Of a stretch of 64,000 nucleotides of DNA, positions 9,440 through 30,682 are shown one piece after another. The translations under genes and the position numbers were made by a program. The DNA is taken from assembly GCF_001704295.1 (NCBI RefSeq), contig NZ_CP012334.1, positions 5,344,084 to 5,408,083 of the forward strand. The letters are read 5' to 3'. The stretch is from Bordetella sp. H567. GTDB taxonomy: Bacteria; Pseudomonadota; Gammaproteobacteria; Burkholderiales; Burkholderiaceae_B. The notes below the pieces were generated by a model that made no database searches, was not told the origin of the DNA, and saw only the letters and a program-made list of their open reading frames with translations. The stretch's first letter is position 1. Each line of letters starts with the position of its first letter.

Positions 9440-9661
9440 TGCGTGATCGGGGCGGTTTGCTGGCGGTCGTTGGATTTCTATTGCCGTCCGTCGGGGGTGA
9501 GGCCTGTCAGGGCCGGCCCGATCGGGCGGTCCGGCCCGCGGGGGCCGGACACCGCTGCGCTCACCTCGTTCGGCGGCCGCTCCCTGTTTGGGTTCTTCTT
9601 GATGACGTCCGCGGCACGCCTGCCTTCGGTATCCGCTTGCTCGCCCTCAACGGGCCGGCCC
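9440..9661 (-). repeat. Dispersed palindromic repeat copy 1, left part (split by the IS)
   Basis: Holds the left 34-bp arm (9486-9519), the inner 9-bp hairpin (9529-9550) and the beginning of the right arm (9652-9661) of the B module found also at 11753-11952, 23912-24112 and 30469-30668. The right arm is cut by the IS and continues at 11044-11075. A 31-bp stretch (9470-9500) is repeated exactly in inverted orientation at 11938-11968. Reverse orientation relative to copies 2-4. No gene is seen between the IclR gene and the IS. Confidence 0.9.
9654..9661. repeat. Target-site duplication of the IS, left copy
   Basis: GCCGGCCC at 9654-9661 is repeated at 11044-11051 directly outside the two IS ends. 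Removing one copy and the IS rebuilds an uninterrupted repeat arm like that at 30635-30668. Confidence 0.9.
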
Positions 9662-11043
9662 GGGACTGTCAGGATTTTTGTGTTTGAGGCATTTGAACGT
9701 CGTCGTGTTTCTGACTCTCCAGGTTCATGCTACTTCAGTGATATGGGTCGGTGAAGCGTTCTGCATAGATGATGGCAAACTGGTTCATGGCCAACCTCCA
9801 GTCGTGCGTGGCGCAGCCCCAGGTGCCCGTGATATTGCGCAGGACTAACCACAATAACTTGGTTGCGGCGTCGTCACTGGGGAAGTGTCCACGGGTCTTT
9901 ACCGATCGGCGCAATTGCGCATTCAAGCTCTCGATGGCATTGGTGGTGTAGATGATCTTTCGGATCGCCGGGGGAAACGTAAAGAACGGGATCACGCGGT
10001 CCCAGGCGCGATGCCAGGTCTGGGCGATGGTCGGATATCTTTGGCCCCAACTGCCTTGCTCGAACACTGCCAGCGCCGCTTGCGCAGCCTCCACGGTCGG
10101 TGCGGTGTAGATCGGCCTGAGAGCCGCAGCCACTATCCGGCGCTCCTTCCAGCTCGCATATTCGACGCTACTGCGCATCAGATGCACGATGCACGTTTGC
10201 AGTGTGGTGCTTGGAAATACCGCGTTCAGCGCCTGCTCCATCCCCTTTAAGCCGTCGGTGACCGCGATCAGGATATCCAGCGTGCCCCGAGTCTTGAGTT
10301 CGTTGAACACCTTCATCCAGAACTTCGATCCCTCGGTCTGCTCGATCCACAGGCCCAGGATGTCACGAGTGCCGTCCGGCAGGATCGCCAGCGCCAGGTA
10401 CACCGCCTTGTTGCGTACCACGCCATCTTCGCGGATCTTCACCCGCAACGCGTCGAAGAACACCACCGGATACATGGTCTCCAAAGGGCGGTTCTGCCAG
10501 GCGATCACCTCTTCCATAACCGCGTCGGTCACCGAACTGATGAACTCGGGCGAGACTTCCGTGCCGTACTGCTCAAGCAGAAAACCTTGGATCTCGCGCA
10601 CCGTCATCCCCCGGGCGTACATGGCGATGATCTTGTCATCAAATCCCGTAAATCGACGCTTGTGCTTGGGAATCAGGATCGGCGCAAAACTGCCTTGCCG
10701 GTCCCGGGGAATGTCCACGCGTAGCGGCCCATCGTCGGTTATCACCGTCTTGCCACTGGTGCCGTTGCGATGGTTAGTGCTGCCTTCGGGCGGGTCCGTG
10801 CCGGCGCCATAGCCCAGGTGCTGGCCCATTTCCGCGCCCAGCGCCCGTTCGATCAGGGCCTTCTTGAACGCCATCGAAAGGTCCTGCACCGACTCCGGCG
10901 TCATCGGACCTTTGACGAACTCATCCATCAGATTTGCAGGAATCGATGGCAATTCCCTCGGAGGTGCCTTTTGCTTGGTAGCCATAATGTGCTCCTCTGG
11001 AGCAGCTATGTTAGGCCTCAAACACAAAATTTATGACACTCCC
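9662..11043 (-). mobile_element. IS256-family insertion sequence, 1382 bp, apparently complete
   Basis: Terminal inverted repeats of 29 bp lie at 9662-9690 and 11015-11043 and match at 25 of 29 positions (outer GGGA.TGTCA, inner TTTTGTGTTTGAGGC). An 8-bp direct duplication GCCGGCCC flanks it, and it has a single intact transposase reading leftwards. The 8-bp duplication, size and DDE protein fit the IS256 family. It is inserted inside an arm of a dispersed repeat. Confidence 0.95.
9735..10985 (-). CDS. IS256-family (mutator-type) transposase
   Basis: A 416-residue transposase, full length for the family. Catalytic residues: D178 (VVFFDALRVKIRE), D244 (AVTDGLKGME) and E352 (TTNAIESLNAQLRR), with the family C-x2-H element CIVH (265-268). 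The start MATKQK at 10985 is preceded by AGGAGCACATT, a good ribosome site; the extension to 11027 would use bases of the inverted repeat. No frameshift or missing catalytic residue is seen, so it could be active. Confidence 0.95.
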   Translation of the reverse strand: MATKQKAPPRELPSIPANLMDEFVKGPMTPESVQDLSMAFKKALIERALGAEMGQHLGYGAGTDPPEGSTNHRNGTSGKTVITDDGPLRVDIPRDRQGSFAPILIPKHKRRFTGFDDKIIAMYARGMTVREIQGFLLEQYGTEVSPEFISSVTDAVMEEVIAWQNRPLETMYPVVFFDALRVKIREDGVVRNKAVYLALAILPDGTRDILGLWIEQTEGSKFWMKVFNELKTRGTLDILIAVTDGLKGMEQALNAVFPSTTLQTCIVHLMRSSVEYASWKERRIVAAALRPIYTAPTVEAAQAALAVFEQGSWGQRYPTIAQTWHRAWDRVIPFFTFPPAIRKIIYTTNAIESLNAQLRRSVKTRGHFPSDDAATKLLWLVLRNITGTWGCATHDWRLAMNQFAIIYAERFTDPYH

Positions 11044-11225
11044 GCCGGCCCCGACAGGCCTCACCCCCGACGGACTCCGGCGTCTATTAATCACGTCCGC
11101 TGGGACGGGCTGTGTTCTTGCGCTTCGTGGATCCTGGGTTTCGCCGATGGAAGGCTTCGCGGCGCCCGTCGTTCGCGGCCGCCCAGCGCGGCCACGAAGC
11201 GACCTACGTGGTGGCGTCATGCTGC
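11044..11225 (-). repeat. Dispersed palindromic repeat copy 1, right part
   Basis: Continues copy 1 after the IS: the remainder of the right B arm (11044-11075), then on the minus strand the conserved linker (revcomp of attaatcacg and gggacgggctgtgttcttgcg), CTTCCATCGGC and the A hairpin (about 11168-11203; both halves of a stem with one bulge around a GCTGG-type loop) preceded by CGTAGG. The unit reads right to left. Confidence 0.85.
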
Positions 11226-11447
11226 GGTGGCTGGCATGCGGGCATCGCCGCGAATAAGTAGATGTCCGTGCGCATGCGTCGGCCGCGAAATTCGAGGGGA
11301 AATTCCAAGCCGCCAACAATCGGGCGGTGTACTAATTGGCGGCGCTACAGCCAGTGGAAATCCCTGGAGTTCGCATGCACCCAATGCATGCAGAAACCGC
11401 CAGCGTATTCGCGACCCGTCGCCGTATAGCAACCGTTGCATGCTTAA
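11226..11447. other. Spacer between head-to-head repeat copies, no gene recognised
   Basis: This 220-bp stretch between two opposed repeat copies has several open frames (70-220 residues), but they are Arg/Ala/Pro-rich, mutually overlapping and run into the repeats. No start context or recognisable domain is seen. Confidence 0.5.
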
Positions 11448-11968
11448 ACCGCGTAGGCGCTTCGTGGCCGCGCTGGGCGGCTGCGAAGCGACGGGCATGG
11501 CGAGATCTTCCATCGGCAGCAGCGCCACGCATTAGCAAATCACGCGATCTGCGCAGGCATGAAGTTCCACTCATTCGAGCCGATCCCCGCACGCCAGCAA
11601 CCGCCGCAAACCACTACCGCGTAGGTGATGCACGGCCGCGCAGGGCGGCCGTGCATCACGGGCAAGACCAAATCTTCCAACGGCGGAAGCATGACCCCAC
11701 GAAGCGCAAGAACGCAGCCCGTGCCAGCGGACAGTGATTAAGGCACAACGGAGTCCGTCGGGGGTGATGCCTGTCGGGGCCGGCCCGTTGAGGGCGAGCA
11801 AGCGGATACCGAAGGAAGCCGAGGCGCGGACCCCATCAAGAAAAACACAACACCCCAACGCCCGGCGGACGAGGTGAGCGCAGCGGTGTCCGGCCCCCGC
11901 GGGCCGGACCGCCCGATCGGGCCGGCTCCGACAGGCATCACCCCCGACGGACGGCAATAGAAATCCAA
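11448..11968 (+). repeat. Dispersed palindromic repeat copy 2 (two A hairpins plus B module)
   Basis: Two A hairpins lie in tandem: 11458-11490 (14-bp stem, two mismatches) and 11625-11659 (15-bp perfect stem gtgatgcac...). Each follows GCGTAGG and closes with a GCCGC-loop-GCGGC core. The linker CCCACGAAGCGC...AGTGATTAAGGCACAACGGA leads to the B module: 34-bp arms 11753-11786 and 11919-11952 (33 of 34 paired) with inner hairpin 11888-11909 (9-bp perfect). The end (11938-11968) is the exact inverse of 9470-9500. Confidence 0.9.
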
Positions 11969-12052
11969 CCACCGCCAGCCACCGACCCAATCAGCACGAG
12001 CAAACTGACCACCCCCAGCCCCCCCCCCAACCCACCAGCAACCCAAAGGCAT

Positions 12053-12922
12053 TCACGCCACCCCCCGCACCCACGCCGCGAACTCCCCGCAAGGCCGTAT
12101 ATCCAGCGTGCCCGGCGCGCTGACCAGGTAGTAGGACTCCCCACTGCGCAAAACCGCCTCCAGCGGATGCACCAGCACCTCACGCGCAACTTCCTCCCGC
12201 ATATAAGCCTGCTGCGTCAACGCGATACCCGCCCCCTGCACCGCCGCCTGCAGGCACAGCGCCGCGTTCGCCAACGGCACCAGGCGCGCGCCCGCCGGCG
12301 ACAAGCCCGCCTGCGCCAGCCAAGCCTCCCAACTGACGGGCGCAATCATCGAATGCAGCAGCTTGTGTTCAAGCACATCCCGCGGATGATGGATCGTCGC
12401 CGCCATCGACGGCACGCAGGCCAGCGCCAGCACATCGTCGAACAGCGGATCCGCGTGCAGCCCCGGCCACCGACCATGCCCACGCCGCACCACGAAATCC
12501 GCATCGCCCAGGCTCACGTCGTCCGCCCGCGTGACCGTGGCCACCTCCAGATCGATATCGCCATGCGCGGCGTAGAAACCGGCCAGGCGCGGCATCAGCC
12601 ATTTGATCGCGAAGCTGGGAATCACCTTCAACCGCACCCGCCGCGTCCGTCCCAGCGACGTCGCCTCGTGCACCGCCTCCTCCACGCGATCGAACAATTC
12701 CGCCACGCGCGTTGCCAATTGCAGCCCGCTGGGCGTCAGTACCGCTTCGCGCCCTTCCTTGCGGCACAGCCGCGTATCGAGCGCCACCTCCAGCGCGCGG
12801 ATCTGGTGGCTCACCGCGCCGGGCGTAACGTGCAGGCTGTGGGCCGCGCGCGCCACGCCGCCGGCGCGGTTGACCGCGTCCAGTACGCGCAGGGGCCCCA
12901 GGATATTGCGCAGCTTATGCAT
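12053..12922 (-). CDS. LysR-family transcriptional regulator (GcvA-like)
   Basis: A 289-residue LTTR. The winged helix-turn-helix at residues 5-63 contains GGVARAAHSLHVTPGAVSHQIRALE, with the GAVSHQI recognition helix typical of the GcvA/AmpR group. The effector domain covers about 90-289. The start MHKLRNILGPL at 12922 is preferred over upstream in-frame Met codons because LTTRs begin just before the HTH. It is divergent from the Bug/MmgE gene set at 13066, the likely target. Confidence 0.9.
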   Translation of the reverse strand: MHKLRNILGPLRVLDAVNRAGGVARAAHSLHVTPGAVSHQIRALEVALDTRLCRKEGREAVLTPSGLQLATRVAELFDRVEEAVHEATSLGRTRRVRLKVIPSFAIKWLMPRLAGFYAAHGDIDLEVATVTRADDVSLGDADFVVRRGHGRWPGLHADPLFDDVLALACVPSMAATIHHPRDVLEHKLLHSMIAPVSWEAWLAQAGLSPAGARLVPLANAALCLQAAVQGAGIALTQQAYMREEVAREVLVHPLEAVLRSGESYYLVSAPGTLDIRPCGEFAAWVRGVA

Positions 12923-13065
12923 GATGCTTGAATGGTCCTCAACGGTCGCCAAAGAAATTCGCATGACGCCCGCGGGACCGCCTCCTATAGTCGTGGGCAG
13001 GAACAACAAGAATTCTCAACATACCGCGCCCGGCGGGGTATCGGGAACATCCAGGAGGAGACATC
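12923..13065. promoter_or_regulatory. Divergent LysR/Bug promoter region
   Basis: This 143-bp spacer between the LysR gene and the Bug receptor gene is where an LTTR normally binds its own and its target promoter. AGGAGGA at about 13051-13058 is a strong ribosome site for the receptor. No clear T-N11-A palindrome could be fixed by eye. Confidence 0.5.
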
Positions 13066-14067
13066 ATGCGGATCGCCATCCTTCGCCGTGCCGCGGCGGC
13101 CATAGCGACAGCAGCGGCGCTGTCGCTGGCCGGCGCGCCGGCCCACGCGCGCGACGACTACCCGTCGCGGCCGCTGAAGATGATCGTGCCCTTTGCCGCG
13201 GGCAGCGCCGCCGACACGCTCTCGCGCGTCGTGGCCACGCAGCTCGCGGCGCAGCTCGGACAGGCCATCGTCGTGGAAAACAAGGCGGGCGCGGGCGGCA
13301 CCATAGGAACCATGGACATCGCGCGCGCCGCCCCCGACGGCTACACCATCGGGCTGGCCGCGCAAGGCACCCTGATCACCAACCAGGCCCTGTACGACAA
13401 GCCCGGCTATGACTCCGTGAAGGATTTCACGCCGATCGCCGTCCTGGCCGATGTGGCCAATGTGCTCGTGGTCGCGCCCGATTCCCCCTACGCCTCCGTC
13501 GCGGCGCTGATGCAGGCCATCAAGGCACATCCCGCCAACAAGCTCAGCTTCTCGTCCAGCGGCGTGGGCACCAGCCACCATATCGCCGGCGTGGTGCTGG
13601 GCCAGTCCCTGGGCAAGCCCCTCATGCATGTGGCCTACACCGGCGCGCCGCAAGGCCTGGTCGCCGTCATGAGCAAGGAGGTCGACCTGGGCCTGTACAA
13701 CATCCCCGCGGCCATCGGCCTGATCCGCGGCGGCAAGCTCAAGCCGCTGGCGGTCACCAGCCTGGGACGATCTCCGCTGATGCCCGACGTGCCCTCGCTG
13801 AGCGAGAGCGGGCTGAAGGACTACGAAGTCACGTTGTGGTTCGGCATCATCGCGCCCGCCGGCGTGGCGCCGGATCGCGTCGCGCGATTGCACAAGGAAC
13901 TGGATGCCGTCATGCGGCAGCCGGCGCTGCGTGCCAAGCTGACCGAGCAGGGTTATGACGTGGCGGCAACGCCCCTGGCCCCGCCCGGCGACTTCTCGGC
14001 GCTGATCCGCCGCGACCTGGCGAAATGGCTGCCCGTCATGAAAACCCTGCGCGGGGGTGCGCAATGA
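13066..14067 (+). CDS. Bug-family (TctC) periplasmic solute-binding receptor
   Basis: A 333-residue receptor. Signal peptide about 1-28 (RRAAAAIATAAALSLAGAPAHA), mature start DDYPSRPLKMIVPFAAGSAAD. It carries the family hallmarks YPSRP, VPF.AGS..D and VVVENK.GAGG.IG (here IVVENKAGAGGTIG) and the C-terminal AP.GVAPD segment. Bug proteins bind small carboxylates or similar solutes, but no TctA/TctB permease genes occur in the window. Its stop overlaps the ATG of the MmgE/PrpD gene (ATGA), so the two are coupled and probably act on the same acid. A strong AGGAGGAG site precedes the start. Confidence 0.93.
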   Translation: MRIAILRRAAAAIATAAALSLAGAPAHARDDYPSRPLKMIVPFAAGSAADTLSRVVATQLAAQLGQAIVVENKAGAGGTIGTMDIARAAPDGYTIGLAAQGTLITNQALYDKPGYDSVKDFTPIAVLADVANVLVVAPDSPYASVAALMQAIKAHPANKLSFSSSGVGTSHHIAGVVLGQSLGKPLMHVAYTGAPQGLVAVMSKEVDLGLYNIPAAIGLIRGGKLKPLAVTSLGRSPLMPDVPSLSESGLKDYEVTLWFGIIAPAGVAPDRVARLHKELDAVMRQPALRAKLTEQGYDVAATPLAPPGDFSALIRRDLAKWLPVMKTLRGGAQ

Positions 14068-15530
14068 CGGCCCAGGCGCACAATGGCAACGCCCGCGCGG
14101 CCGGCCCGGATACCCCGCGGAACGACGTGGCGAACAAGGACGGCACCGGCCACCCTCCGGACAGCGACACACCGACCATCGCGAGCGTCCTTGCCGCGCA
14201 CGCGGTACGGACACCGGTCTCCGATATCCCGCCCTTGGCGCTGGAACACGCCAAGATGAGCCTGGCCAGCACCATCGCCAGCGCGTCCATGGGCTATCGC
14301 ATTCCCTCCGCGGAAATCGTGCGCCGGCTGGCACTCGAGGACGGCGGTGCGCCGCAGGCCACGCTGTGGTTCCATGGCGCGCCGCTGCCCGTCGCGCAAG
14401 CCGCGCGCGTCAATGCCGTCGCCAGCGATGCGGCCGCCTCCGACGACAGCGACCTGCGCAGCATCGCCCATATCGGGACCATCGTCGGCACGACGGCGCT
14501 CGCCGTCGCCGAATGGTTGAACCGCCCGGGCAGGGACCTGCTCGCCGCCATGGCGCTGGGCTATGAAGTCGCCGGACGCATCGACGAATCGCTCACGCCG
14601 GGCCGCATGCAGCGCGGCTTCCACGGCTCCGTCTCCACCGTGTTTGGCGCGGCGGTCGCGGGCGGCCGCCTGCTCGGCCTGGACGTCGCCGCGATGACCC
14701 ACGCGATCGCGCTGGCCGCGACGTCCATCGGCGGGATGGCGGTGGCGGCCGATACCAGCTGCGCGCGGGAATACCACGCCGGCATGGCCGCGATGGCGGG
14801 CATCCAGGCCGCGCTGGCGGCGCGCGCCGGTTTCCAGGGCGACCCCGCCATCCTGGAAGCGCCGCGCGGCTTCCTGCATGCCATGGGCGGGCAGGCCATC
14901 GGCGATATCGTGCGCGGCCTGGGGGATTCCTGGGACATCGTGACCGACATGGCGATCAAGCTGATGCCGGGCGCCCATCCCTTTCACGCGGTGGCGGAGG
15001 CCGCCGCCACCGCGGCGCGCCAGCACGACGTCGATCCGGCGCGCATCGCACGCATCGTCGTATCGGCCGGCGTGCAGCACACCAGCTTCGGCGGGGCGCC
15101 GCATCCCCGCAATCTGGTGGAAGCGGCCCACAGCGTGGCGTACTTCGTGGCCGCCTCCGTCGTCGATCGCGGCTTCGGCTGGGACAACCTGCATCCGGAC
15201 AAGATGCGCGATCCGCGCATCGCGGCGCTGCAGGACAAGGTGCGATACGCGAGCGAGCCGCCGCCCCTGCCGGACCGCTTCCCGCATCGCCACGGCGGCA
15301 GCGTGGCCATCCACATGGACGATGGCCGCATCCATGAAGCGAGCTGCCGCGCGCCCCGCGGCGCGGGATCGCGCGGCATCGCGTGGGCCGACGTGCAAGC
15401 CAAGTACCGCGAGCTGGCCCCGCGCGCCGGCCTGGATGCAGGCCAGGTCGCCGATACGTGGTCACTGATCCGCGATCTGGACCATCTGGACGATGTCGCG
15501 CAACTGGCGCGCGGCCTCATGCTGCGCTGA
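14064..15530 (+). CDS. MmgE/PrpD-family protein
   Basis: A 488-residue member of the MmgE/PrpD family (2-methylcitrate dehydratase, iminodisuccinate epimerase and relatives). After a disordered Gly/Asp-rich head of about 35 residues come the all-helical domain (ALEHAKMSLASTIASASMGY, DDSDLRSIAHIGT, GYEVAGRIDESL, RGFHGSVSTVFGAA) and the alpha/beta domain (MPGAHPFHAVAEAA). The start at 14064 overlaps the Bug stop by ATGA. The reaction is unknown; context suggests dehydration or isomerisation of an acid imported by the Bug system. Confidence 0.88.
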   Translation: MTAQAHNGNARAAGPDTPRNDVANKDGTGHPPDSDTPTIASVLAAHAVRTPVSDIPPLALEHAKMSLASTIASASMGYRIPSAEIVRRLALEDGGAPQATLWFHGAPLPVAQAARVNAVASDAAASDDSDLRSIAHIGTIVGTTALAVAEWLNRPGRDLLAAMALGYEVAGRIDESLTPGRMQRGFHGSVSTVFGAAVAGGRLLGLDVAAMTHAIALAATSIGGMAVAADTSCAREYHAGMAAMAGIQAALAARAGFQGDPAILEAPRGFLHAMGGQAIGDIVRGLGDSWDIVTDMAIKLMPGAHPFHAVAEAAATAARQHDVDPARIARIVVSAGVQHTSFGGAPHPRNLVEAAHSVAYFVAASVVDRGFGWDNLHPDKMRDPRIAALQDKVRYASEPPPLPDRFPHRHGGSVAIHMDDGRIHEASCRAPRGAGSRGIAWADVQAKYRELAPRAGLDAGQVADTWSLIRDLDHLDDVAQLARGLMLR

Positions 15531-15759
15531 TCGCGGCGTTATGCCGAAAACGCGCAGTCTGCTATGCCGGGGGCGTGGCGTGTCGCGCCCCGCGCCGTGA
15601 CTAGTATGGCCTCACACGTGCACGGGTCCGCGACCGCGGCGAGAGGCGCGAAACGGTGGGCAGGTCTCGCTCGGCAAGGCGGGACAAGTCCAACGATAAG
15701 GGTGTGGGTCCCTGCCGGGGCTAGGGCAGGCACGCACCGATAACATCCAGGAGACAGAC
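15531..15759. promoter_or_regulatory. Intergenic region before the second Bug gene
   Basis: 229 bp without a supported gene. It holds short GC-rich inverted segments just after the MmgE/PrpD stop (gggcgtgg...cgcgccccgcgcc around 15570-15596) and AGGAG about 10 bases before the next ATG. A promoter or terminator is likely but not resolved. Confidence 0.35.
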
Positions 15760-16734
15760 ATGTTGCGATTCCTCATCGGCTGTGTCGCCGCCCTGATGCT
15801 GGCCGGCCCGGCCGCAGCCGCCGACACCTTTCCTTCCCGTCCCATCGTCATGCTGGTCGCGGTGGCGCCCGGCGGCACGCTGGATACGCTGGCGCGCCAG
15901 ATCGCCAGCTCGCTGACCACCGAACTGGGCCAATCGGTGGTGGTGGAAAACACCACCGGCGCGGGCGGCCTGATCGGCTACCAGCGCCTGATGAAATCCG
16001 ATGCCGACGGCTACACCCTGATGTTCAGCAATATGTCGCTGGCCATCATTCCCCTGCTCTATCCGACCGCCCACGTCGATCCGGTGCGCGACCTTTCGCC
16101 CATCGGCACGGTGGCGACGGTGCCCATGGTGCTGTCGGTCAGCAACAAGAGCGGTATCACCAGCCTGCCCGACATGCTCAAGCGCATGCGCGCCGAAGGC
16201 CCCAAGCTGAACTTCGGTTCCGGCGGTCCCGGCACCACGGCGCACCTGGCCGAGGGCCTGTTCCTGCACATCTCCAAAACGCAGGGCGAGCTGATCCAGT
16301 ATCGCGGCTCGGGCCCGGCGATCGCCGACCTCATGGCGGGCACCATCGATGCCGTCATCGACCAGACCGTCACCATGATGCCGTTGCACAAGGACAAGCG
16401 CATACGGGCCATCGCGGTGTCCGCGCCGCAGCGCCTGCCGCAGATGCCGGACGTTCCCACCTTCGCGGAAGGCGGCCTGCCGGCGTTCAACCTGGCCATC
16501 TGGAATGGCGTGGTGGCGCCGCGCAACACCCCCAAGCCGGTCGTCGACAAGCTGGCCGCGGCGCTGTCCAAGGCCATCGACAGCCCGGAATTCAAGAACC
16601 GCATCGACCAGCTCGCGGCCGCCGTGCCCAGCCAGGCCGAACGCGGCCCCGCGCCGTTTTCCGCGCTGCTGGCCAAGGACACCCGGGAAGTGGCCTCGTT
16701 GGCCAAGCAGATCGGCCTGACGCCGCAGCAGTAG
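15760..16734 (+). CDS. Bug-family (TctC) periplasmic solute-binding receptor
   Basis: A 324-residue Bug receptor with a 20-residue signal peptide (MLRFLIGCVAALMLAGPAAAADTFPSRP in two parts: hydrophobic core then AAA cleavage) and hallmarks FPSRPIVMLVAVAPGGTLDT and VVVENTTGAGGLIGY. It lies same-strand after the MmgE/PrpD gene (229 bp) and 53 bp before the dehydrogenase. Its sequence differs clearly from the receptor at 13066, so it is not a local duplication. The ligand is probably a carboxylate (family knowledge). Confidence 0.92.
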   Translation: MLRFLIGCVAALMLAGPAAAADTFPSRPIVMLVAVAPGGTLDTLARQIASSLTTELGQSVVVENTTGAGGLIGYQRLMKSDADGYTLMFSNMSLAIIPLLYPTAHVDPVRDLSPIGTVATVPMVLSVSNKSGITSLPDMLKRMRAEGPKLNFGSGGPGTTAHLAEGLFLHISKTQGELIQYRGSGPAIADLMAGTIDAVIDQTVTMMPLHKDKRIRAIAVSAPQRLPQMPDVPTFAEGGLPAFNLAIWNGVVAPRNTPKPVVDKLAAALSKAIDSPEFKNRIDQLAAAVPSQAERGPAPFSALLAKDTREVASLAKQIGLTPQQ

Positions 16735-16787
16735 GCGCGCCGGCCGGCGCCCCGGATTTCCTACACGACGCCTTACGAGGAGAGAAC

Positions 16788-17699: not shown

Positions 17700-17822
17700 A
17701 CCGACGCGACGGCAGCGCCCGCGCCGCGGCATCGCGGGCGGACGGCGCCGTGGCGACGCCAGGTCCGGCAAGCGGACGTCGAGCGAACCGCACCGGGCAA
17801 TGCCCATCGCGCGACAGCGACG

Positions 17823-17864
17823 TTGCCATCGCGCGGCGGCGATATCGCCGTCGGGTGATGGCAA
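17823..17864. terminator. 42-bp inverted repeat between convergent genes
   Basis: Two 21-base arms (17823-17843 and 17844-17864) pair at 18 of 21 positions around a perfect core GGCGATATCGCC. It sits between a plus-strand gene ending at 17699 and a minus-strand gene ending at 17886. The position suits a bidirectional transcription stop, though there is no T-run. A partial third copy follows (GCAATATCGCCGCCGG). Confidence 0.55.
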
Positions 17865-17885
17865 TATCGCCGCCGGGAACGCGGC

Positions 17886-18827: not shown

Positions 18828-18872
18828 CGCGCCGTCCGCCTTGATGAAGAAATGCCGGCAGCGACGGCGGCG

Positions 18873-19268: not shown

Positions 19269-19351
19269 TGCCTGCCTCCTGTGCATGGCCTGGTGAAACC
19301 GGGTGCCGCCGCGCGAAATCATCGCCGCGCGATGCGCCCGATGTGATGGTT

Positions 19352-21088: not shown

Positions 21089-21163
21089 CGCCGCGGCCCC
21101 GCGGCCCGCCGCGCAGCGCGCGGTTTTCCCAACTTTCCAGACATGACGCGACACGGAGCAACC

Positions 21164-22642: not shown

Positions 22643-22756
22643 GCATTCACGCAACACCATGCATAACGATATTGCGATCCGGCACCCAACGGCGTGGGAG
22701 CAGTTAAAATCCCCCCCATCGCCGGCATCCGGCCAGCCACTTTCCAGACCACACGC

Positions 22757-23479
22757 ATGAACGCCGCTGCCGCGCCTCAAAGCGATTTCAAAGTACCGCG
22801 CGCCGCTTCCGTACTGCGGCACAGCGTGACCGAAAGCATACGCAACGCCATCCTGGTCGGCCGCTTCCGGCCGGGCGAACGGCTGCCCGAACGCGAACTC
22901 TGCGAAATGACCGGGGTCAGCCGCACCCTGGTGCGCGAAGCACTGCGCCAGCTGGAATCCGAAGGCCTCATCCACGTCATCCCGCATCGCGGCCCGGTGG
23001 TCGACCGCGTGTCCCCGGAGCAGGCCGAAGGCATCTACCAGGTGCGGGAAGAACTCGAAGGCCTGGCGTGCCAGCTCTTCGCCGAGCACGCCAGCGACGC
23101 CCAGCGCAAGGCGCTGCAGGACGCCTTCCAGGCCCTGAAGCGCGCGATGACGCACGGCACCGCGCTCGAACGCCTGACCGCCAAGAACTTCTTCTACCAA
23201 CAACTCCTCGACGGCGCCGGCAACGAAGCCCTGACCACCACCCTGCGCCTGCTGAACTCGCGCGTCATGCTGCTGCGATCCACGTCCATGCAGGCGCCGG
23301 GCCGCTCCCGCAAGAGCGTCGCCGAGCTCGCCGACGTCATGGAAGCCGTGGCCGCCCGCGACGGCAAGGCCGCCCGCCGCGCCGGCAGCCTGCACGTACG
23401 CAACGCCGCCAAGGTAGCGATCGAAATCCTGCGCCAAAGCAACGAAGCCGCCGAAGAAGAATCCGCCGCCACCTCCTGA
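22757..23479 (+). CDS. GntR-family regulator, FadR/FCD subfamily
   Basis: A 240-residue regulator. The winged HTH (about 12-80) reads LRHSVTESIRNAILVGRFRPGERLPERELCEMTGVSRTLVREALRQLESEGL in successive segments. The helical FCD effector domain runs about 90-225, with metal/ligand positions in the all-alpha bundle. The start MNAAAA at 22757 gives the normal family length. Likely autoregulates and controls the surrounding catabolic genes through the 18-bp motif found at 19840, 19948 and 24311 (inference). Confidence 0.9.
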   Translation: MNAAAAPQSDFKVPRAASVLRHSVTESIRNAILVGRFRPGERLPERELCEMTGVSRTLVREALRQLESEGLIHVIPHRGPVVDRVSPEQAEGIYQVREELEGLACQLFAEHASDAQRKALQDAFQALKRAMTHGTALERLTAKNFFYQQLLDGAGNEALTTTLRLLNSRVMLLRSTSMQAPGRSRKSVAELADVMEAVAARDGKAARRAGSLHVRNAAKVAIEILRQSNEAAEEESAATS

Positions 23480-23768
23480 CGGCCCCACCCGCATCCACGG
23501 CAAGGCACCGCCCGCCCCTGCCGGTCCGATCACGCACGCGACCGCGAATCGCGACACCTACGGCGACGGCGACAAGACAACGACCGTCACCGCGACCACG
23601 TAGGCGACTGCGACTGCGACCACGACCGTAAACGGCAACAGAACCACCAACGCAAGCAGCAAGCCCTAAACGCAAGCTGGGAGCCGAAAGCCTCAGCCGC
23701 AAATCGCAGCCGCAAGTCACACCCCCCAGCCCCAAACGCAAGCCCAAACGCCAGCCACAACCGCAAGC
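23480..23768. other. Low-complexity CGCAAGCC-rich spacer, no gene
   Basis: The region holds degenerate repeats of CGACCGCGA and CCGCAAGCCACAAACG-like units (23540-23770), giving repetitive shadow frames on the minus strand (Gly/Leu/Arg-rich). No start context or domain is seen. It leads directly into repeat copy 3. Confidence 0.6.
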
Positions 23769-24125
23769 CACAAACACGTAGGCGCAGAGGGGCCGCGCTG
23801 GGCGGCCTCTCTGCGACGTGCACCGCAACATCTTCCATCGGCAAAACACCTCCGCCCACGAAGCGCCAAGCACCCCACCCGCCCCAGCGCCGGTGATTCA
23901 GGCACATCGCAGTCCGGCGGGGGCGATGCCTGCCGAGGCCGGCCCGTAGGAGCCGCGCGACGGAATCCGAAGGCAGGACGGCCGGGCAAAAAAGCCGCAA
24001 GAACCCCACCGATGTTCGGCCGCCGAACGAGGATGAGGACGCGGCAGTCCGCCGCGAAGGCGGCGGACCGGCTCCTCCGGGCCGGCCTCGGCAGGCATCG
24101 CCCCCGCCGGACGGCCATAGCACTC
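23769..24125 (+). repeat. Dispersed palindromic repeat copy 3
   Basis: A hairpin 23783-23815 (14-bp stem cgcagagg..., one mismatch that would be a G-U pair in RNA) follows ACGTAGG. Linker: CTTCCATCGGC, CCCACGAAGCGCCAAGCAC and GGTGATTCAGGCACATCGCA. B arms 23912-23945 and 24079-24112 are perfect 34-bp inverse copies; inner hairpin 24047-24068 (9-bp, GAAG loop). Four bases differ from the arm of copy 2, and each change is mirrored in the opposite arm. Confidence 0.9.
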
Positions 24126-24310
24126 CATCGCCACGCCGCACAACACCCCCGCCAGACCGCGACAGCACCAAGCCGCAAGACATGACCCCGCCACACGGCA
24201 ACACCACCCCATCGCGACGCCCTACGACCTCCCCCGCCAGACGACAACCGCCACCGAATCGCCGCCAACTCCAGACAAACCCCACCCCCCAATCCGTTGT
24301 GAATCCGAGA

Positions 24311-24328
24311 ATGCAATAATACAATCAT
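24311..24328. promoter_or_regulatory. 18-bp motif upstream of the SDR (candidate GntR/FCD operator)
   Basis: ATGCAATAATACAATCAT matches the two motifs in the 19748-20125 control region (consensus ATRCARTMRTRCAATCAT). It lies 54 bp before the SDR start, where an operator would be expected. Confidence 0.6.
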
Positions 24329-24381
24329 CCTCTAATACGATAACCATCCAACACCCACCCCAAAGAGACACGGAGCAGACA

Positions 24382-25125
24382 ATGGCCAGACTTCAGGGCA
24401 AGGTTGCGATCGTCACAGGCGCCGCAGGGGGAATCGGAAGAGCCATCGCGCAAGCCTATGCGCGCGAAGGCGCCCGCGTCGGCATGCTGGACAACAACGC
24501 CGAGCTCCTCACCCGCGCCGCCGCCGAAACACCGGGCGCCGAAGCCCTGGTCTGCAACGTCGCCCACCGCGCCGCCGTCCTGGCTGCCATCGGGGGATAC
24601 GCGGAACGCATGAAAGGCCTGGACATCCTCGTCAACAACGCGGCCTACTTCCACTACGCCCCCCTGACCGACATGCCCGAAGACATCGTCGACAGGATGA
24701 TAGACGTCGGCCTGAAAGGCGCCCTCTGGAGCCTGCAGGCCGCCACCCCACATCTCATCGCCCGCGGCGGCGGCGCCGTCATCAACCTCTCTTCCGTCGC
24801 CGTCTCCTTCGCCATCAAGCACGCCGCGGTCTACAGCGCCATCAAGGGCGCCCTGGACACCCTCACGCGCCAGCAGGCGGTCGAACTGGGCGGCCACGGC
24901 ATACGCGTCAACGCCCTCGCTCCCGGCCCTGTCATCACCCCGGGGGCCAGCTCGGTCATCGACGCGCAAGGCTGGGAAACGCGGCGCCAGAAAACGCCGC
25001 TCAAACGCCTGCCCACCGGCGAGGACATTGCCGCCGCCGCCGTCTTCCTGGCCTCCGACGAAAGCGCCACCGTCGCGGGCATCACCCTCAAAGTCGACGG
25101 CGCGCTCACCATAGGCGGGTATTGA
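24382..25125 (+). CDS. SDR-family oxidoreductase
   Basis: A 247-residue classical SDR: TGAAGGIG at about 12-19, NNAAYF at about 88, catalytic S (INLSSVAV) and YSAIK (about 152-156), C-terminal VDGALTIGGY. The substrate is unknown. The promoter region carries the 18-bp motif shared with the Bug/CMD divergent region, suggesting it belongs to the same regulon. An ABC importer operon follows after 117 bp on the same strand and may be co-expressed. Confidence 0.88.
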   Translation: MARLQGKVAIVTGAAGGIGRAIAQAYAREGARVGMLDNNAELLTRAAAETPGAEALVCNVAHRAAVLAAIGGYAERMKGLDILVNNAAYFHYAPLTDMPEDIVDRMIDVGLKGALWSLQAATPHLIARGGGAVINLSSVAVSFAIKHAAVYSAIKGALDTLTRQQAVELGGHGIRVNALAPGPVITPGASSVIDAQGWETRRQKTPLKRLPTGEDIAAAAVFLASDESATVAGITLKVDGALTIGGY

Positions 25126-25242
25126 CGGCCAGGCGGCGTCCATCGCGCCGCGACCACCGGCCAGGGCACGACGAGGTTGCGGGACTTCGGCGCCACGGCA
25201 AGGAACGTGAAGACATAACAACGCGTTGCTCCAGGAGACGCG

Positions 25243-26205
25243 ATGACGGAATTGCAGATACAGCTGGAGGCCTTCCTCCAGGCGCTCGCGGCCGGCGTGC
25301 TGGTGGGTGCCCTGTATGGCCTGATGTGCGTCGGCCTGGCCATGATCTTCGGGATCATGCGCGTCATCAACTTCGCCCAGGGCGACTTCATGATGCTGGG
25401 CATGTACGTCGCCTACTTCTTCTTCATCGCACTCGGCTCGCATGTGCTGGCCGGCTCCCCGCTGGGCGCCTATCTCTCCATCCTGCTCACCGTTCCCGTC
25501 ATGTTCGCCGTCGGCTACCTGGCGCACCGGCTGCTGATCTCGCGCGTCACCGGCGGCAGGACTGCGGCACTGGAAGGCGAAGGGCACTACGCGCAGTTGA
25601 TCCTCACGCTGGGCATCGCGCTGATCCTGCAGAACGGCGGCATGATGGTCTTCGGACCGCAGCTCGTCTCCATACGCACGTCGGTATCCAGCACCGCCTG
25701 GGAGATCGGCCCGCTGTGGGGCGACGTCGTCAGCATCTTCGTCAACAAGGGCCGCGGCATCGCCGCCCTCATTTCCGTGGCGACCATCCTGCTGCTGGTC
25801 GCCCTGGTCAATCGCACCCGCCTGGGCAAATCGCTGCGCGCCGCCGCCGACAACCCCGTTGCCGCTTCCTACATGGGCATCGACGTCAATCGCGCCTACC
25901 GCATCGCCTTCGCGCTGGGCACTTGCGTCACCGCCTTGTCCGGCGGCCTGCTGGCCACCAATTTTCCCTTCCATCCCTTCGTCGGCCTGGAGTTCGTCAT
26001 CATCATGTATGCCGGCGTCGTGCTGGGCGGCATGGGCAGCATCTCCGGCGCCTTCTGGGGCGGCATGGTCATCGGCCTGGTCCAGCAACTGTCCGCGCTG
26101 GTCCTGCCCACGCAGCTGCAGAACGCCGCCATCTTCGTATTCTTCCTGCTGATCGTGACCCTGCGCCCGCAGGGCCTCTTCGGCCGCGTGGCGGAGCGGA
26201 CATGA
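25243..26205 (+). CDS. livH: Branched-chain-type ABC transporter permease (LivH)
   Basis: A 320-residue inner-membrane permease of the LivH class. Multiple spans begin at GVLVGALYGLMCVGLAMIFGIMRVINFAQGD in segments. The family signature NFAQGD.MMLGMY is at about 44-57 and the late GGMGSISGAFWGG loop is present. AGGAGACGCG precedes the ATG. Its TGA overlaps the ATG of the fused LivM-LivG gene (ATGA at 26202-26205). Such systems import branched-chain amino acids, but also amides, urea or aromatic acids, so the substrate is open. Confidence 0.9.
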   Translation: MTELQIQLEAFLQALAAGVLVGALYGLMCVGLAMIFGIMRVINFAQGDFMMLGMYVAYFFFIALGSHVLAGSPLGAYLSILLTVPVMFAVGYLAHRLLISRVTGGRTAALEGEGHYAQLILTLGIALILQNGGMMVFGPQLVSIRTSVSSTAWEIGPLWGDVVSIFVNKGRGIAALISVATILLLVALVNRTRLGKSLRAAADNPVAASYMGIDVNRAYRIAFALGTCVTALSGGLLATNFPFHPFVGLEFVIIMYAGVVLGGMGSISGAFWGGMVIGLVQQLSALVLPTQLQNAAIFVFFLLIVTLRPQGLFGRVAERT

Positions 26206-28253
26206 ACCGGCGCCGCCATACGTGGATCTTGTGCGCCCTGGCCATCGCCTATCCCGCGATCGCCTTGATGGTCGACAACACCTACCACCAGCTGATCTTC
26301 ACGCTGGTCCTGGTGTGGGCCTGCTTCGGCCTGTCGTGGAACATGCTCAGCGGCTATACCGGGCTGGTGTCCTTCGGCCACGCGGCATTCTTCGGGCTGG
26401 GCGCGTACGCGGCGGTACTGGGACAGATTTATCTGAACCTGACGCCATGGCTGATGATTCCCGTCTCGGCCATCATCGGGGCCGCCGCGGGCCTGCTTGT
26501 CGGGTTGCCCACCTTCCGCCTGCGCGGGCACTACTTCGCCCTGGCCATGCTCGCCTATCCGCTCGCCTTGCTCTACGTCTTCGAATGGCTGGGCTACCAG
26601 GAAGTCACCTTCCCGATGAAGCGCGAGAACGCCGCCGCCTACATGCAGTTTTCCAACCCCGGCATCTATACCGTGGTCGCGATGATCATGCTGGTGCTCT
26701 TCGTCGTCCTGACGCGGTATGTGGAACGCACCCGCTTCGGCATGGCGCTGATCGCCATCAAGCAGAACGAGGCGGCGGCCGAGGCGGCGGGCATCGACAC
26801 GCTGCGCTGGAAGCTCAAGGCCATCGCGCTGAGCGGCGCCATCGCCGGGGCCACGGGCGCGTTCTACGCCGTCGTGCTGCTGGTCGTCACGCCCGGCTCG
26901 GTGTTCGGCATGCTGGTATCGGCGCAGGCGCTGACGGTCGCGATGTTTGGCGGCGTGGGCACCGTGTGGGGCCCCATCATCGGCGCCGCCATCCTGGTGC
27001 CGCTGGGCGAGATCCTGCACGCCGAACTGGGCGCCCGCTATCCGGGCATACAGGGCGTGATCCTGGGCATCGCCATCATCGCGGTCATCCTGGCGGCGCC
27101 GGAGGGCGTGTTCTGGAAAGTGCGAGACCGCCTGCGCCGCGCGGGAGCGCGGGCCATGCCCGCCACGCTTTCCACGTATCCCGGGGGCAATGCGGCGCGC
27201 CGCGTCAACGAGGGCAACGCAAACGCGCGCGGCATCCAGGGAAACGCCATCGGCGACGGGCCAGGCATGGAGGGCGATGGCAATCACGGCCGGCGCGCCG
27301 GCAACGCCGTGGCCGATCGCCCGGTGTCGTCCACCGAAGCTGCCGCCGGCCACGCCATGTCCGCCGCCCTGCGCGGCATGGCCGACGGCGCGGCCGCCTT
27401 CGTGCCCATGGCCTTCGACACGCTTCCGGCCTCCGAAGCCGCCGCCCTTCAAGCGGCTGCCCATTCCACCGCAAGCGGCACCGAAGCACTTGCCGGCGCG
27501 CCTTCCACGGCCGGCAGCGCCATCCCCATCCTGGAAGTCCGCAACGTCTCGCGCCGCTTCGGCGGCCTGCAGGCCGTGCGCGACGTCAGCTTCAGCGTGC
27601 GGCGCGGCATGATCCTGGGCATCATCGGCCCCAACGGCGCGGGCAAGACCACGCTGTTCAACCTGCTCAACGGCTTCCTGCGGCCGGATACGGGCCAGGT
27701 GCGGGTCAACGGCGTGGATATGGCCGGGCGCAAGCCGCACGTGCTGTGCGCGGCCGGCATGGGCCGCACCTTCCAGGTCATGCGCCCTTTCATGCGGCTC
27801 ACGGTCCTGCAGAACGTGCAGGTGGGTGCCTACGTCAAGGCGCGCAACGAAGCCCATGCCCGCGAACTCGCACACCAGGCCGTCGCCCGCGTCGGCCTGG
27901 GCGACTGCGCCGACCAGGTGGCGTGCACCCTGACCACCCGGCAGCTGCGGCTGATGGAGCTGGCGCGTGCCCTGGCCGGGCAGCCCGAACTCCTGCTGCT
28001 GGACGAAACCCTGGCCGGCCTGGGCCATGGCGAAGTCGACGACGTCCTGGCCGTCATCCGCGCGCTCTCGCAGGAGGGCGTCACCATCGTCATCATCGAA
28101 CACACCATGCAGGCCATGGTGCGGCTGGTCGACCAGTTCGTGGTGCTGGACCACGGCGAAGTCCTGGTGGTGGGCGATCCCGCATCCATCACGCGCGACA
28201 GCCGCGTCGTCCAGGCCTACCTGGGCAAGAAGTGGAGCGCCAAGGATGCTTGA
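26202..28253 (+). CDS. Fused branched-chain-type ABC permease and ATPase (LivM-LivG)
   Basis: A 683-residue fusion. Residues 1-313 are a LivM permease (GLSWNMLSGYTGLVSFGHAAFFGLGAYAA segment, later GGVGTVWGPIIGA). About 314-442 are a long Ala/Gly/Asn-rich hydrophilic linker with no recognised fold. About 443-683 are a LivG ATPase: Walker A GPNGAGKT at 476-483 and Walker B LLLLDE near 600. The signature is atypical: LTTRQLRLMELARALA where LSxGxxR would be expected. The frame is uninterrupted, so this is a true fusion rather than an error. It overlaps LivH (4 bp) and LivF (8 bp). Confidence 0.9.
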   Translation: MNRRRHTWILCALAIAYPAIALMVDNTYHQLIFTLVLVWACFGLSWNMLSGYTGLVSFGHAAFFGLGAYAAVLGQIYLNLTPWLMIPVSAIIGAAAGLLVGLPTFRLRGHYFALAMLAYPLALLYVFEWLGYQEVTFPMKRENAAAYMQFSNPGIYTVVAMIMLVLFVVLTRYVERTRFGMALIAIKQNEAAAEAAGIDTLRWKLKAIALSGAIAGATGAFYAVVLLVVTPGSVFGMLVSAQALTVAMFGGVGTVWGPIIGAAILVPLGEILHAELGARYPGIQGVILGIAIIAVILAAPEGVFWKVRDRLRRAGARAMPATLSTYPGGNAARRVNEGNANARGIQGNAIGDGPGMEGDGNHGRRAGNAVADRPVSSTEAAAGHAMSAALRGMADGAAAFVPMAFDTLPASEAAALQAAAHSTASGTEALAGAPSTAGSAIPILEVRNVSRRFGGLQAVRDVSFSVRRGMILGIIGPNGAGKTTLFNLLNGFLRPDTGQVRVNGVDMAGRKPHVLCAAGMGRTFQVMRPFMRLTVLQNVQVGAYVKARNEAHARELAHQAVARVGLGDCADQVACTLTTRQLRLMELARALAGQPELLLLDETLAGLGHGEVDDVLAVIRALSQEGVTIVIIEHTMQAMVRLVDQFVVLDHGEVLVVGDPASITRDSRVVQAYLGKKWSAKDA

Positions 28254-28953
28254 AATCCGCAACCTCGTCGCCGGCTATGCCGCCCTGCCCGTTTTGCACG
28301 ACGTCTCCATCCAGGTCGAGGCCGGCGAGTTCGTTTCCATCGTCGGCCCCAACGGCGCGGGCAAAAGCACGCTCTTCAAAACCATCTCCGGCACCGTGGC
28401 CGCCATGGCCGGCACCATCCGCTTCGACGGGCACGACCTGCTCGGCGTGGCCCCTGCGCAGCGGCCGCACCTGGGCATCGCCCACGTCCCGGAAGGCCGC
28501 CAGGTCTTCGCCTCCATGACCGTCGAGGAGAACCTGGAGATGGGCGCCTATACCGCCGCCGGCCGCCGCGACTGGCAGCGCAACCTGGCACGCATCTACG
28601 ACTGGTTCCCCGTCCTGCCGCAGCGCGCGCGCCAACTCGCGGGCACCCTGTCCGGCGGCGAACAGCAGATGCTGGCCATCGGCCGCGGCCTGGCATCCTC
28701 GCCGCGTTTGCTGATGCTGGACGAACCCTCCATGGGCCTCTCGCCCGCCATCGCCGACTTCATCTTCGAACGCCTCATCGACATCCGCCGCGATGCCGGC
28801 CTGACCATCCTGCTGGTGGAACAACGCGTGGCCGAAGCCCTGCAATTCGCCGACCACGCCTACGTACTCGAAACCGGTCGCGTCGCCCTGGCCGGCACCC
28901 ACGAAACCCTGCAGGCCGACGACCGCGTCCGCCGTGCATACCTGGGAATGTGA
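28246..28953 (+). CDS. livF: Branched-chain-type ABC transporter ATPase (LivF)
   Basis: A 235-residue ATPase: Walker A GPNGAGKS at 34-41, signature LSGGEQQMLAIGRGL at about 133-147, Walker B LLMLDEPSMGLSP and the late H-loop region LLVEQRV. The start overlaps the fused LivM-LivG stop by eight bases (ATGCTTGA). It partners with the LivG half to power the importer; the binding protein follows 95 bp downstream. Confidence 0.92.
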   Translation: MLEIRNLVAGYAALPVLHDVSIQVEAGEFVSIVGPNGAGKSTLFKTISGTVAAMAGTIRFDGHDLLGVAPAQRPHLGIAHVPEGRQVFASMTVEENLEMGAYTAAGRRDWQRNLARIYDWFPVLPQRARQLAGTLSGGEQQMLAIGRGLASSPRLLMLDEPSMGLSPAIADFIFERLIDIRRDAGLTILLVEQRVAEALQFADHAYVLETGRVALAGTHETLQADDRVRRAYLGM

Positions 28954-29048
28954 ACGGACATCCGCGCGCCGCAAGGCGCGGGGACATCCGCCTGGAGCTT
29001 GAACCACACCTTGAACAGACCCGCCGACAGGGCTGACAGGAGGAGACC

Positions 29049-30287
29049 ATGAAGACCTTGACCATCACGCGCGCCCTGGGCGCGGCGACGTTGTCCGGCC
29101 TGCTGCTCTCGGCCGCCACCCCGGCCCCCGCCCGGGCCGCCGACCCCACGCCCATCAGCGTGGGCCTCATCGCGCCGATGTCCGGCCTCTATGCCCGTCC
29201 CGGCCAGGTCATGCGCATGGGCGCCGAAATGGCGGTGAAGGACATCAACGCCCAGGGCGGCATCAAGGCCCTGGGCGGCGCGCCCCTGAAACTGGTGGTG
29301 GTCGATTCCGGCGACTCCACCGAAAAATCCAAGAGCGCCGCGCAACGCATGGTGGCCGACTACCCGGACCTGGTCGCCGCCACCGGCGCCTACCTGAGCT
29401 CCTTCACGCTGGCCGTCACCGAAGTCACCGAACGCGCCAAGCTTCCCATGCTGACGCTCTCCTACTCCGACCAGATCACGGGACGCGGCTTCAAATACAT
29501 CTTCCAGACCTCGGCCACCGCCGGCCGCCAAGCCGAAATCGCCCTGCCCATCATCCTGGACCTGGCCGAGAAAGCCTCGGGCAAACGCCCGCGCACCGTC
29601 GCCATCCTGACCGACAACACGGCGGCCTCGCTGTCGTCGGTCAAGGCCATGAAGGACGGGCTGCTGCAGAAAAACAATCTGGAACTGGTCGTCGACGAAA
29701 CCTTCACGCCGCCGCTGTCCGATGCCTCATCACTGATCCAGCGCGTCCGCTCGCGCCGCCCGGACCTGGTCTTCTTCCTGCCCACGGTGATTTCCGACGC
29801 GAAGCTGATCCTGGAGAAGATGAACGAAACGAATGTGCGTATCCCCGTCATCTCCTTCGGCATCGCCATCGCGGAGCCGGACGTCCTGAACACCGTCAGC
29901 CCGCAACTGCTGAACGGCGTGATGTCGGCGGTCGCGAACTGGGGCGCCAAGGGCCAGGAAGCGCTGATCCAGCGGATGAAGACCGACTACAAGGAACCGT
30001 GGATGACGCAGAACGCCATATCGACCTATGGCGATATGTGGATCATCAAGGCCGCCCTGGAAAAAGCCGGCAAGGCCGACCGCGAAGCCGTCGCCCAGGC
30101 CATGCGCACCCTGAACGAAGGCCCCACGCCCTACTTCCCGGGCGGCGAACTGAAGTTCGACGACGCCGGCCACCGCATAGGCGCATCGCTCACCATCATC
30201 CAATGGCAAAACGGCATACCCGTCACCGTCTTCCCCGAGAACCTCGCCATCGCCCAGCCCATCTGGCCCGGCAAAAGCAGCAAGTGA
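29049..30287 (+). CDS. ABC transporter substrate-binding protein (LivJ-type, Peripla_BP_6)
   Basis: A 412-residue periplasmic binding protein with a 29-residue signal peptide (ATLSGLLLSAATPAPARAADP). Mature features: PISVGLIAPMSGLYARPGQVMRMGAEMAVKDINAQGG in segments, VVDSGDSTEKS and an AVTEVTERAKLPMLTLS hinge. It ends the livH-livMG-livF operon, with AGGAGGAGACC as a strong ribosome site that may allow higher expression. The ligand is not predictable from the sequence. Confidence 0.92.
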   Translation: MKTLTITRALGAATLSGLLLSAATPAPARAADPTPISVGLIAPMSGLYARPGQVMRMGAEMAVKDINAQGGIKALGGAPLKLVVVDSGDSTEKSKSAAQRMVADYPDLVAATGAYLSSFTLAVTEVTERAKLPMLTLSYSDQITGRGFKYIFQTSATAGRQAEIALPIILDLAEKASGKRPRTVAILTDNTAASLSSVKAMKDGLLQKNNLELVVDETFTPPLSDASSLIQRVRSRRPDLVFFLPTVISDAKLILEKMNETNVRIPVISFGIAIAEPDVLNTVSPQLLNGVMSAVANWGAKGQEALIQRMKTDYKEPWMTQNAISTYGDMWIIKAALEKAGKADREAVAQAMRTLNEGPTPYFPGGELKFDDAGHRIGASLTIIQWQNGIPVTVFPENLAIAQPIWPGKSSK

Positions 30288-30324
30288 ATCCCACCCCACC
30301 ACGGCACCAACACCACCGGCACAA

Positions 30325-30682
30325 CCACACCGCGTAGGCGCTTCGGGGCCGCGCTGGGCGGCCCCGAAGCGACGGGCAATCCAAGACCTTCCATCACCGA
30401 AACGCACAACCCCACGAAGCGCCAAGCACACAGCCCGTCCCAACGGCCAGTGATTAAGGCACAACGGAGTCCGTCGGGGGTGAGGCCTGTCGGGGCCGGC
30501 CCGTTGAGTCCGAGCGAGCGGGCGCCGAAGGGAGCCGAGGCGCGGACACCATCAAGAAAAATCCCACCCCTCAACGCCCGGCGGACGAGGACAGCGACGC
30601 GGTGTCCGGCCCCCGCGGGCCGGACCGGACGATCGGGCCGGCCCCGACAGGCCTCACCCCCGACGGACGGCCCCAGCACGCC
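30325..30682 (+). repeat. Dispersed palindromic repeat copy 4
   Basis: A hairpin 30339-30371 (14-bp perfect stem cgcttcgggg..., loop GCTGG) after CGCGTAGG; linker CTTCCATCACC, CCCACGAAGCGCCAAGCACACAG and AGTGATTAAGGCACAACGGA. B arms 30469-30502 and 30635-30668 (34 of 34 paired); inner hairpin 30604-30625 (GTCCGGCCC-CCGC-GGGCCGGAC). Same orientation as copies 2 and 3. It occupies most of the 516-bp gap before the GtrII-like gene. Confidence 0.9.

Follow-up and report, generated by a model that had tools for sequence, protein, structure and literature searches.

We analysed a dispersed palindromic element in 64,000 nucleotides of DNA from Bordetella sp. H567 (NZ_CP012334.1, positions 5,344,084 to 5,408,083; the whole stretch is hereafter the window). 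The window holds four half-elements of ~340 bp each, at the positions that an earlier note on this DNA had given, and each reads on its own strand as a head (CGTAGG), a hairpin (A), a spacer and a ~200-bp palindrome (B). The words described in that note as shared are present, with variants between copies: CGTAGG in the head and CTTCCATC, CCACGAAGCGC and GTGATTAAGGCACAACGGA in the spacer. The element is a dispersed, strongly structured family outside Rfam, and it is larger in scale than first described. We tentatively read it as a non-coding element that may act at transcript 3′ ends and whose plus strand (running from A to B) is under selection for its single-stranded fold, likely as RNA.

Layout of the element in the window

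Copies 1 (minus strand) and 2 (plus strand) form a head-to-head inverted pair, with a further hairpin A in the pair centre (about 11452–11490, plus strand). The flanking genes are of IclR type (plus strand) and LysR type (minus strand), and the pair thus sits between convergent genes. Copy 2 comprises hairpin A with arms gtgatgcac (11620–11662), an A/C-rich spacer holding CTTCCA, CCACGAAGCGC and GTGATTAAGGCACAACGGA (11663–11752) and a B module (11753–11952), all on the plus strand. The 35-bp arms of this module surround a 130-nt core, and the left arm (11753–11787) has a single G-T against the right one. Copy 3 (plus strand) has hairpin A and spacer at 23777–23911 and a B module at 23912–24112, the arm at 23912–23946 recurring as an exact reverse complement at 24078–24112; it follows a GntR-type gene (plus strand) in sense and is followed by an SDR gene (plus strand). 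Copy 4 (plus strand), which follows a periplasmic binding protein gene (plus strand) in sense, has hairpin A and spacer at 30333–30468 and a B module at 30469–30668, with arms at 30469–30503 and 30634–30668. Between copies 2 and 3 the B arms show four differences (arm positions 6, 13, 22 and 25), each mirrored in the opposite arm, and the inner hairpin changes from GTCCGGCCC to GTCCGCCGC, both as the earlier note had described.

That note had also placed copy 1 in two pieces. The split is real; its inverted pairing with copy 2, its minus strand and the cause of the split had been missed. Copy 1 is divided by an IS256-family insertion sequence (IS) of 1382 bp (9662–11043, minus strand), with ends GGGACTGTCAGG..TATGACACTCCC and an 8-bp target duplication, GCCGGCCC, at 9654–9661 and 11044–11051. 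The transposase open reading frame (9735–11027, minus strand) is listed from TTG, with an ATG start inside it. On one side of the IS lies the outer part of the cut B module (9486–9661, minus strand; arm at 9486–9520), placed by homology to the other halves. On the other side lie the residual inner arm (11044–11075, minus strand; genome match 5355127–5355296), then spacer and hairpin A (11076–11208, minus strand), with the head CGTAGG at 11203–11208.

Distribution and covariation

With copy 4 as query, we found 23 matches of more than 300 bp in the window genome, along with several partial matches. These fall at 14 loci, 3 with a single half and 11 with an inverted pair (always minus-left, plus-right); additional A hairpins, spaced about 165–170 bp, occur in some of the pairs. 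Two of six genomes of the same genus have the element, and the second carrier (G003) likewise has pairs and singles. The covariance-model search of the genome and its relatives that the earlier note had proposed was run for hairpin A, with a model built from 47 sequences; it covered 268 genomes of the bacterial family and gave matches in 51 of them: 2 of 6 in this genus, 39 of 43 in Achromobacter, nine Bordetella petrii-like genomes (g9) and one genome of a further genus (g12). These counts are lower bounds, with 19 candidates scored per genome. An even sample of the order gave matches in 4 of 399 genomes, all in the same family, under strict filters that scored 13 candidates per genome and missed weak copies.

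An exact-pattern scan of named genomes returned two matches, one a true copy in Achromobacter insuavis LMG 26845 and the other, in Kineobactrum sediminis, judged by eye to be chance. A plasmid search with two queries gave no match, and the hairpin A pattern matched no viral contig. A tblastn comparison with G003 yielded no locus orthology: nearly all matches lay inside elements, and a few were shared gene families. An exonuclease III-like gene (named by reading) lies near elements in both genomes, at differing positions. Rfam 15 gave no match in the window and, at eight related loci, five sub-threshold matches, the best scoring 33 bits against a cut-off of 137. No Rfam 15 family above its gathering cut-off covers the element, in keeping with the note's statement that no named family fits, despite its occurrence in most Achromobacter genomes searched.

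Hairpin A is about 15 bp long, with a loop of GC[TA]GG or CCGG type, a CGTA or CGAA head (CGTAAG, CGTATG, CGTAGG and CGAATG occur) and a GGGC or GGCC tail; its arms are free to vary, yet complementary. Our first set of 47 hairpins drew 30 on this genome, 16 on G003 and 1 on A. insuavis, after four of 51 candidates had been dropped and one re-registered. In its 40 unique arm pairs, 270 of 280 variable cells were paired, against a shuffled mean of 171 and maximum of 195, so the pairing is not due to chance. In G003 each of the 16 hairpins is paired throughout, at 14 of 14 positions. A sequence-anchored collection raised the number to 164 hairpins. Taken without a pairing filter, they comprise 122 unique arm pairs, in which 760 of 854 cells were paired; shuffles averaged 440 and never exceeded 483. 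When we set aside the 25 hairpins with fewer than five of eight variable positions paired, 139 hairpins remained, with 714 of 742 cells paired. Among their 106 unique arm pairs there are 95 distinct outer arms, which makes this a genome-wide repeat that conserves fold, not sequence. In an alignment of 37 hairpins chosen for diversity, whose statistics describe that selection, 99.5% of 555 cells were paired, and the covariation score was 0.696 (0.133 shuffled, 0.146 at most when slid). Three loci of one genome (L163–L165, G103) share the arms of their A hairpin exactly, and the loop there, GCCCGTAG, is 8 nt long against the usual 4–5 nt.

The B module consists of a long outer stem, differing from locus to locus, round a branched core. 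In Achromobacter the core strands GGAATC[TCG]GAAGG and GACGA[AGC]GATGA enclose a variable hairpin, followed by a GTCCGGAGC hairpin. Within it a 4-bp helix (ATCY/RGAT) covaries between conserved flanks, GGA/GA and GAAGG/GACGA. Columns 36–72 hold C-G 19, U-A 9 and G-C 4 times, and a lone pair at columns 29–78 holds G-C 23 and C-G 9 times. Of 124 candidate B modules our searches set 14 aside; the 110 retained include a few spurious ones (array hairpins). Thirty-two of 53 B cores were of similar length and were aligned; 97.9% of 855 cells were paired, with a score of 0.157 (0.037 shuffled, 0.038 at most when slid). A regular expression for the core found a full Watson–Crick triplet in 54 of 72 unique modules, as counted from its table, and shuffles reached the observed total in 1 of 2,000 trials; it failed to match 20 of the 110 modules, and its lazy matching puts some copies, mainly those of this genome, out of register. 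The same table shows seven Watson–Crick triplets beside GAAGG/GACGA across lineages. Some modules lack such a core, among them several in the petrii-like genomes. The earlier note had staked its claim on covariation over many copies, and the claim withstands this: A pairing holds over the 122 unfiltered arm pairs, and covariation extends to short internal helices of B. Tandem repeats of the outer tail of B occur at three loci (L033, right end, about 44 bp; L099, left end; L041, right end) and look like products of replication slippage.

Strand, gene context and competing explanations

A cruciform, or purely mutational upkeep of the arms, should leave G-T and A-C mismatches equally frequent on a given strand. 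In A stems we counted 20 G-T against 5 A-C mismatches on one strand (1 of 96 arms was skipped), and in B helices 65 against 14 cells, or 23 against 10 columns. RNAalifold gave −183.3 for B forward and −174.1 reverse, and −34.0 and −33.0 for A. Linkers and flanks are A/C-rich on the forward (A to B) strand. Across four groups the linkers have a C content of 0.34–0.44 and a G content of 0.20–0.24 (Achromobacter, 0.42 and 0.20); by comparison, 3′ flanks outside elements, taken from 25 window genes, are balanced (C 0.345, G 0.335). The mismatch bias and the A/C-rich strand disfavour a symmetric DNA cruciform. The earlier note had weighed a structured RNA against a mobile palindrome kept as a cruciform; these were the right alternatives, and the symmetric cruciform is the part that fares badly. 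What the sequences point to is a selected single strand, and the choice of RNA over single-stranded DNA is a judgement.

In this genus the copies lie mostly downstream of a gene, either singly or as head-to-head pairs between convergent genes. By gene calls made on codon composition, all 16 hairpins in G003 and 22 of the 25 called in this genome have their upstream gene in sense; the downstream gene runs antisense at 14 of the 16 and at 20 of the 25 called, respectively. Convergent flanks surround 32 of 42 hairpins in this genus, 5 of 18 in the petrii-like genomes and 14 of 48 in Achromobacter. Many Achromobacter flanks are uncalled; the downstream gene there is antisense in 38 of 47 called. 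Rho-dependent terminators feature an unpaired stretch of the transcribed strand that is rich in C and poor in G, and the linkers have this composition, on a strand that may be transcribed. Three regions held 1, 0 and 4 terminator-like sites, where shuffles averaged 0.8, 1.0 and 1.7, which indicates no clear intrinsic terminator. Promoter-like sites numbered 0 in the three regions, in a scan without power since shuffles gave 0–0.1.

On the reading we favour, the element would be transcribed by read-through as a 3′ untranslated region. Rho could be loaded on its C-rich, G-poor linkers, and folding of A and B could block 3′-to-5′ exonucleases and fix a stable transcript end, which would insulate neighbouring genes; copies would spread and be lost in intergenic DNA. 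We offer this 3′-end RNA mechanism as the best inference, not as a result.

Several observations weigh against it. Folded single-stranded DNA would yield much the same covariation. The G-T excess in A stems is uneven (G-T to A-C of 12 to 0 in this genome, 6 to 4 in Achromobacter, 2 to 1 in the petrii-like genomes and none in G003) and, because related copies are not independent, it is weak outside this genome (8 against 5). The B helices were picked by forward-strand folding, which biases their mismatch counts towards G-U. Two of the five covariation measures are weak: the double-change count in A (nine pairs) was matched by 192 of 500 shuffles, and the pair-type count was reached by 33 of 500 shuffles for A and 22 of 500 for B. 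The upstream gene in Achromobacter is in sense for 15, antisense for 12 and uncalled for 21 of 48 hairpins. A gene beside an inverted pair meets the other half in antisense first, which is awkward for a terminator, and gain and loss between species suggests that the element may be dispensable.

The main rival is a non-autonomous mobile DNA element, read as a folded single strand by a transposase or recombinase (in REP-like or attC-like fashion) that recognizes only shape, which would leave the stems free to vary. We consider it somewhat unlikely. The structure-specific covariation speaks for it, as do the following observations. Near-identical copies occur at unrelated loci (L033 and L042, 96.9% identity over 671 bp), and stretches running from a half into the pair centre are common to different loci (L031 and L039, 95% over 532 bp). 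The element is also present or absent at one orthologous Achromobacter locus, beside a glycerophosphodiesterase-like gene (named by reading). Of 30 loci returned there, 21 have both flanks; seven carry an A-bearing element (L265–L270 and L272), L271 has a remnant and five have only 14–22 bp. The A arms differ among these orthologues, with changes that are mostly mirrored. Three other Achromobacter loci (L274, L275 and L279) have a different repeat, of GGGGGGCAGCAAGC type, at the same intergenic site, which thus collects repeats.

Against a mobile DNA element, we saw no target duplication of the element and no fixed terminal sequence in boundary comparisons, nor a duplication at the one orthologous locus with occupied and near-empty sites, where flanks have diverged. 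The internal covariation of 1–4-bp helices and the G-T excess also fit RNA somewhat better. The REP-type transposase that the earlier note had suggested looking for is absent: the REP-associated tyrosine transposase (RAYT; Y1 transposase, PF01797) had no match in this genome at E ≤ 10 and none in five congeners at E ≤ 0.001. Some element-carrying Achromobacter and petrii-like genomes do have a PF01797 match. None of 12 RAYT-type loci from related genomes, six of them read as the gene plus 350 bp on each side, has an A hairpin; eight, in Achromobacter and petrii-like genomes, sit among REP repeats of GGTGTC[AT]GACACC type (L193–L195, L199–L202 and L204; 6 to 19 matches per locus), and L203 has a variant repeat, GGTGTCCGGCACC.

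A broader version of mobility, which we hold to be improbable, is a new class of mobile element copied through, or recognized as, a folded single strand (RNA-templated and similar to a short interspersed element, or structure-only DNA), its shape rather than its sequence being read by host or transposase proteins, and by the IS256 clade as its target. Stand-alone small RNAs seem about as improbable: an inverted pair would then be two divergently transcribed RNA genes reading outward from the centre, which suits the head-to-head layout and the strand-specific fold, but T is scarce (9–18%) in the 60 nt upstream of A, and we saw no particular neighbouring genes. Least probable are functionless selfish palindromes whose perfection is maintained by template-switch (quasi-palindrome) correction: mirrored change in the long arms fits them, as does, through replication slippage, the exact deletion of B between short GCG repeats at one orthologous locus (L126/L268 of G026, compared with L127/L265 of G014), yet such correction is hard to invoke for covarying 1–4-bp internal helices, lone pair included, and leaves the conserved unpaired motifs and the excess of G-T over A-C unexplained.

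Known repeats and the IS256-family element

Repetitive extragenic palindromic (REP) elements and their BIME and REPIN assemblies are palindromic, extragenic, placed at gene 3′ ends, arranged in inverted pairs or arrays and targeted by insertion sequences; a conserved GTAG or GGAG stands 5′ of a sequence-conserved hairpin. The present element shares the first set of properties. It differs in being about ten times larger and bipartite, with stems free to vary and a head of CGTA[AGT]G or CGAATG in place of a fixed GTAG. We rejected a REP element of a RAYT system, given the missing RAYT, the variable head, the distinct outer arms and the RAYT loci without A. Miniature inverted-repeat transposable elements with subterminal palindromes are non-coding and dispersed, with inverted-repeat units. 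Our element is likewise non-coding and dispersed, in inverted-repeat units of about 0.7–1.1 kb; neither a conserved terminal repeat sequence nor a target duplication was found for it.

Intergenic repeats have been described in the same bacterial family. BRE, an intergenic Bordetella repeat of ~90 bp, is often tandem, occurs also in Comamonadaceae and has been suggested to be mobile (Hot 2011, PMC3110155). Bor (26–30 bp, intergenic) has a predicted stem-loop (Petrillo 2006, PMC1590033), as has Bor-1 (93–117 bp), described with Bor-2 (2008, PMC2267715). The sizes given, together with the tandem arrangement and wider range of BRE, would set the present element apart. Our literature searches returned no published description that we recognized as the element.

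The insertion sequence belongs to the IS256 family: it has a Mutator-type transposase (Transposase_mut, 1.8e-123 for the copy in L031; IS256, NF033543), terminal inverted repeats and a duplication within the 8–9-bp range. This genome has 10 full copies, more than 99.8% identical, each with a perfect and distinct 8-bp duplication. Full copies occur at 10 of the 11 pair loci and at none of the 3 single loci. Nine copies lie directly in pair loci (in the A loop, the A head, B or the centre), and one lies in an eleventh, interrupted IS copy that is itself in a pair. Without IS copies, element loci amount to roughly 12 kb of the 5.53-Mb genome.

The association extends to another genus. The three closest homologues among 151 family genomes searched (86–87% amino-acid identity, two Achromobacter genomes) all lie in or directly against elements: one against a B-type palindrome (L305, duplication CCGTAGGT), one between a minus B and a plus A (L326, duplication CGGCGCCG) and one in a B arm at a contig end (L306). 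G003 has a 63-aa IS remnant, with no Pfam match, in the centre of one pair. Among the loci returned for distant homologues (73% identity or less), an automatic scan gave no A hairpin and no B-type inner hairpin, a weak negative, given that it picked up neither the element at L306 nor the A hairpin at L326. One g12 genome (G117; L315, L329 and L333) has at least 12 related IS256 copies at 63–64% identity, and the same scan gave no A hairpins at the three loci returned.

Insertion of IS copies into REP palindromes is known, and one study of it lists the IS256-family member ISRm5 (5 of 7) (Tobes and Pareja 2006, PMC1525189). The present case resembles that one in having an IS, of the IS256 family, within a palindromic repeat; it differs in its other, much larger target and in its scattered insertion points, each with its own 8-bp duplication. 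In the passages searched of a paper on Mutator-type transposases (PMC3942029), no words beginning with palindrom, hairpin or terminator occurred. A clade of IS256-family elements would use the element as a landing site. The finding of one IS clade in the element in two genera poses the question of how transposases choose structured targets, and the element offers a system for studying this choice and the role of repeated 3′-end palindromes. The IS also inserts into itself: at one locus (L036, G000:C1:210200-216100) one IS256 copy interrupts a second.

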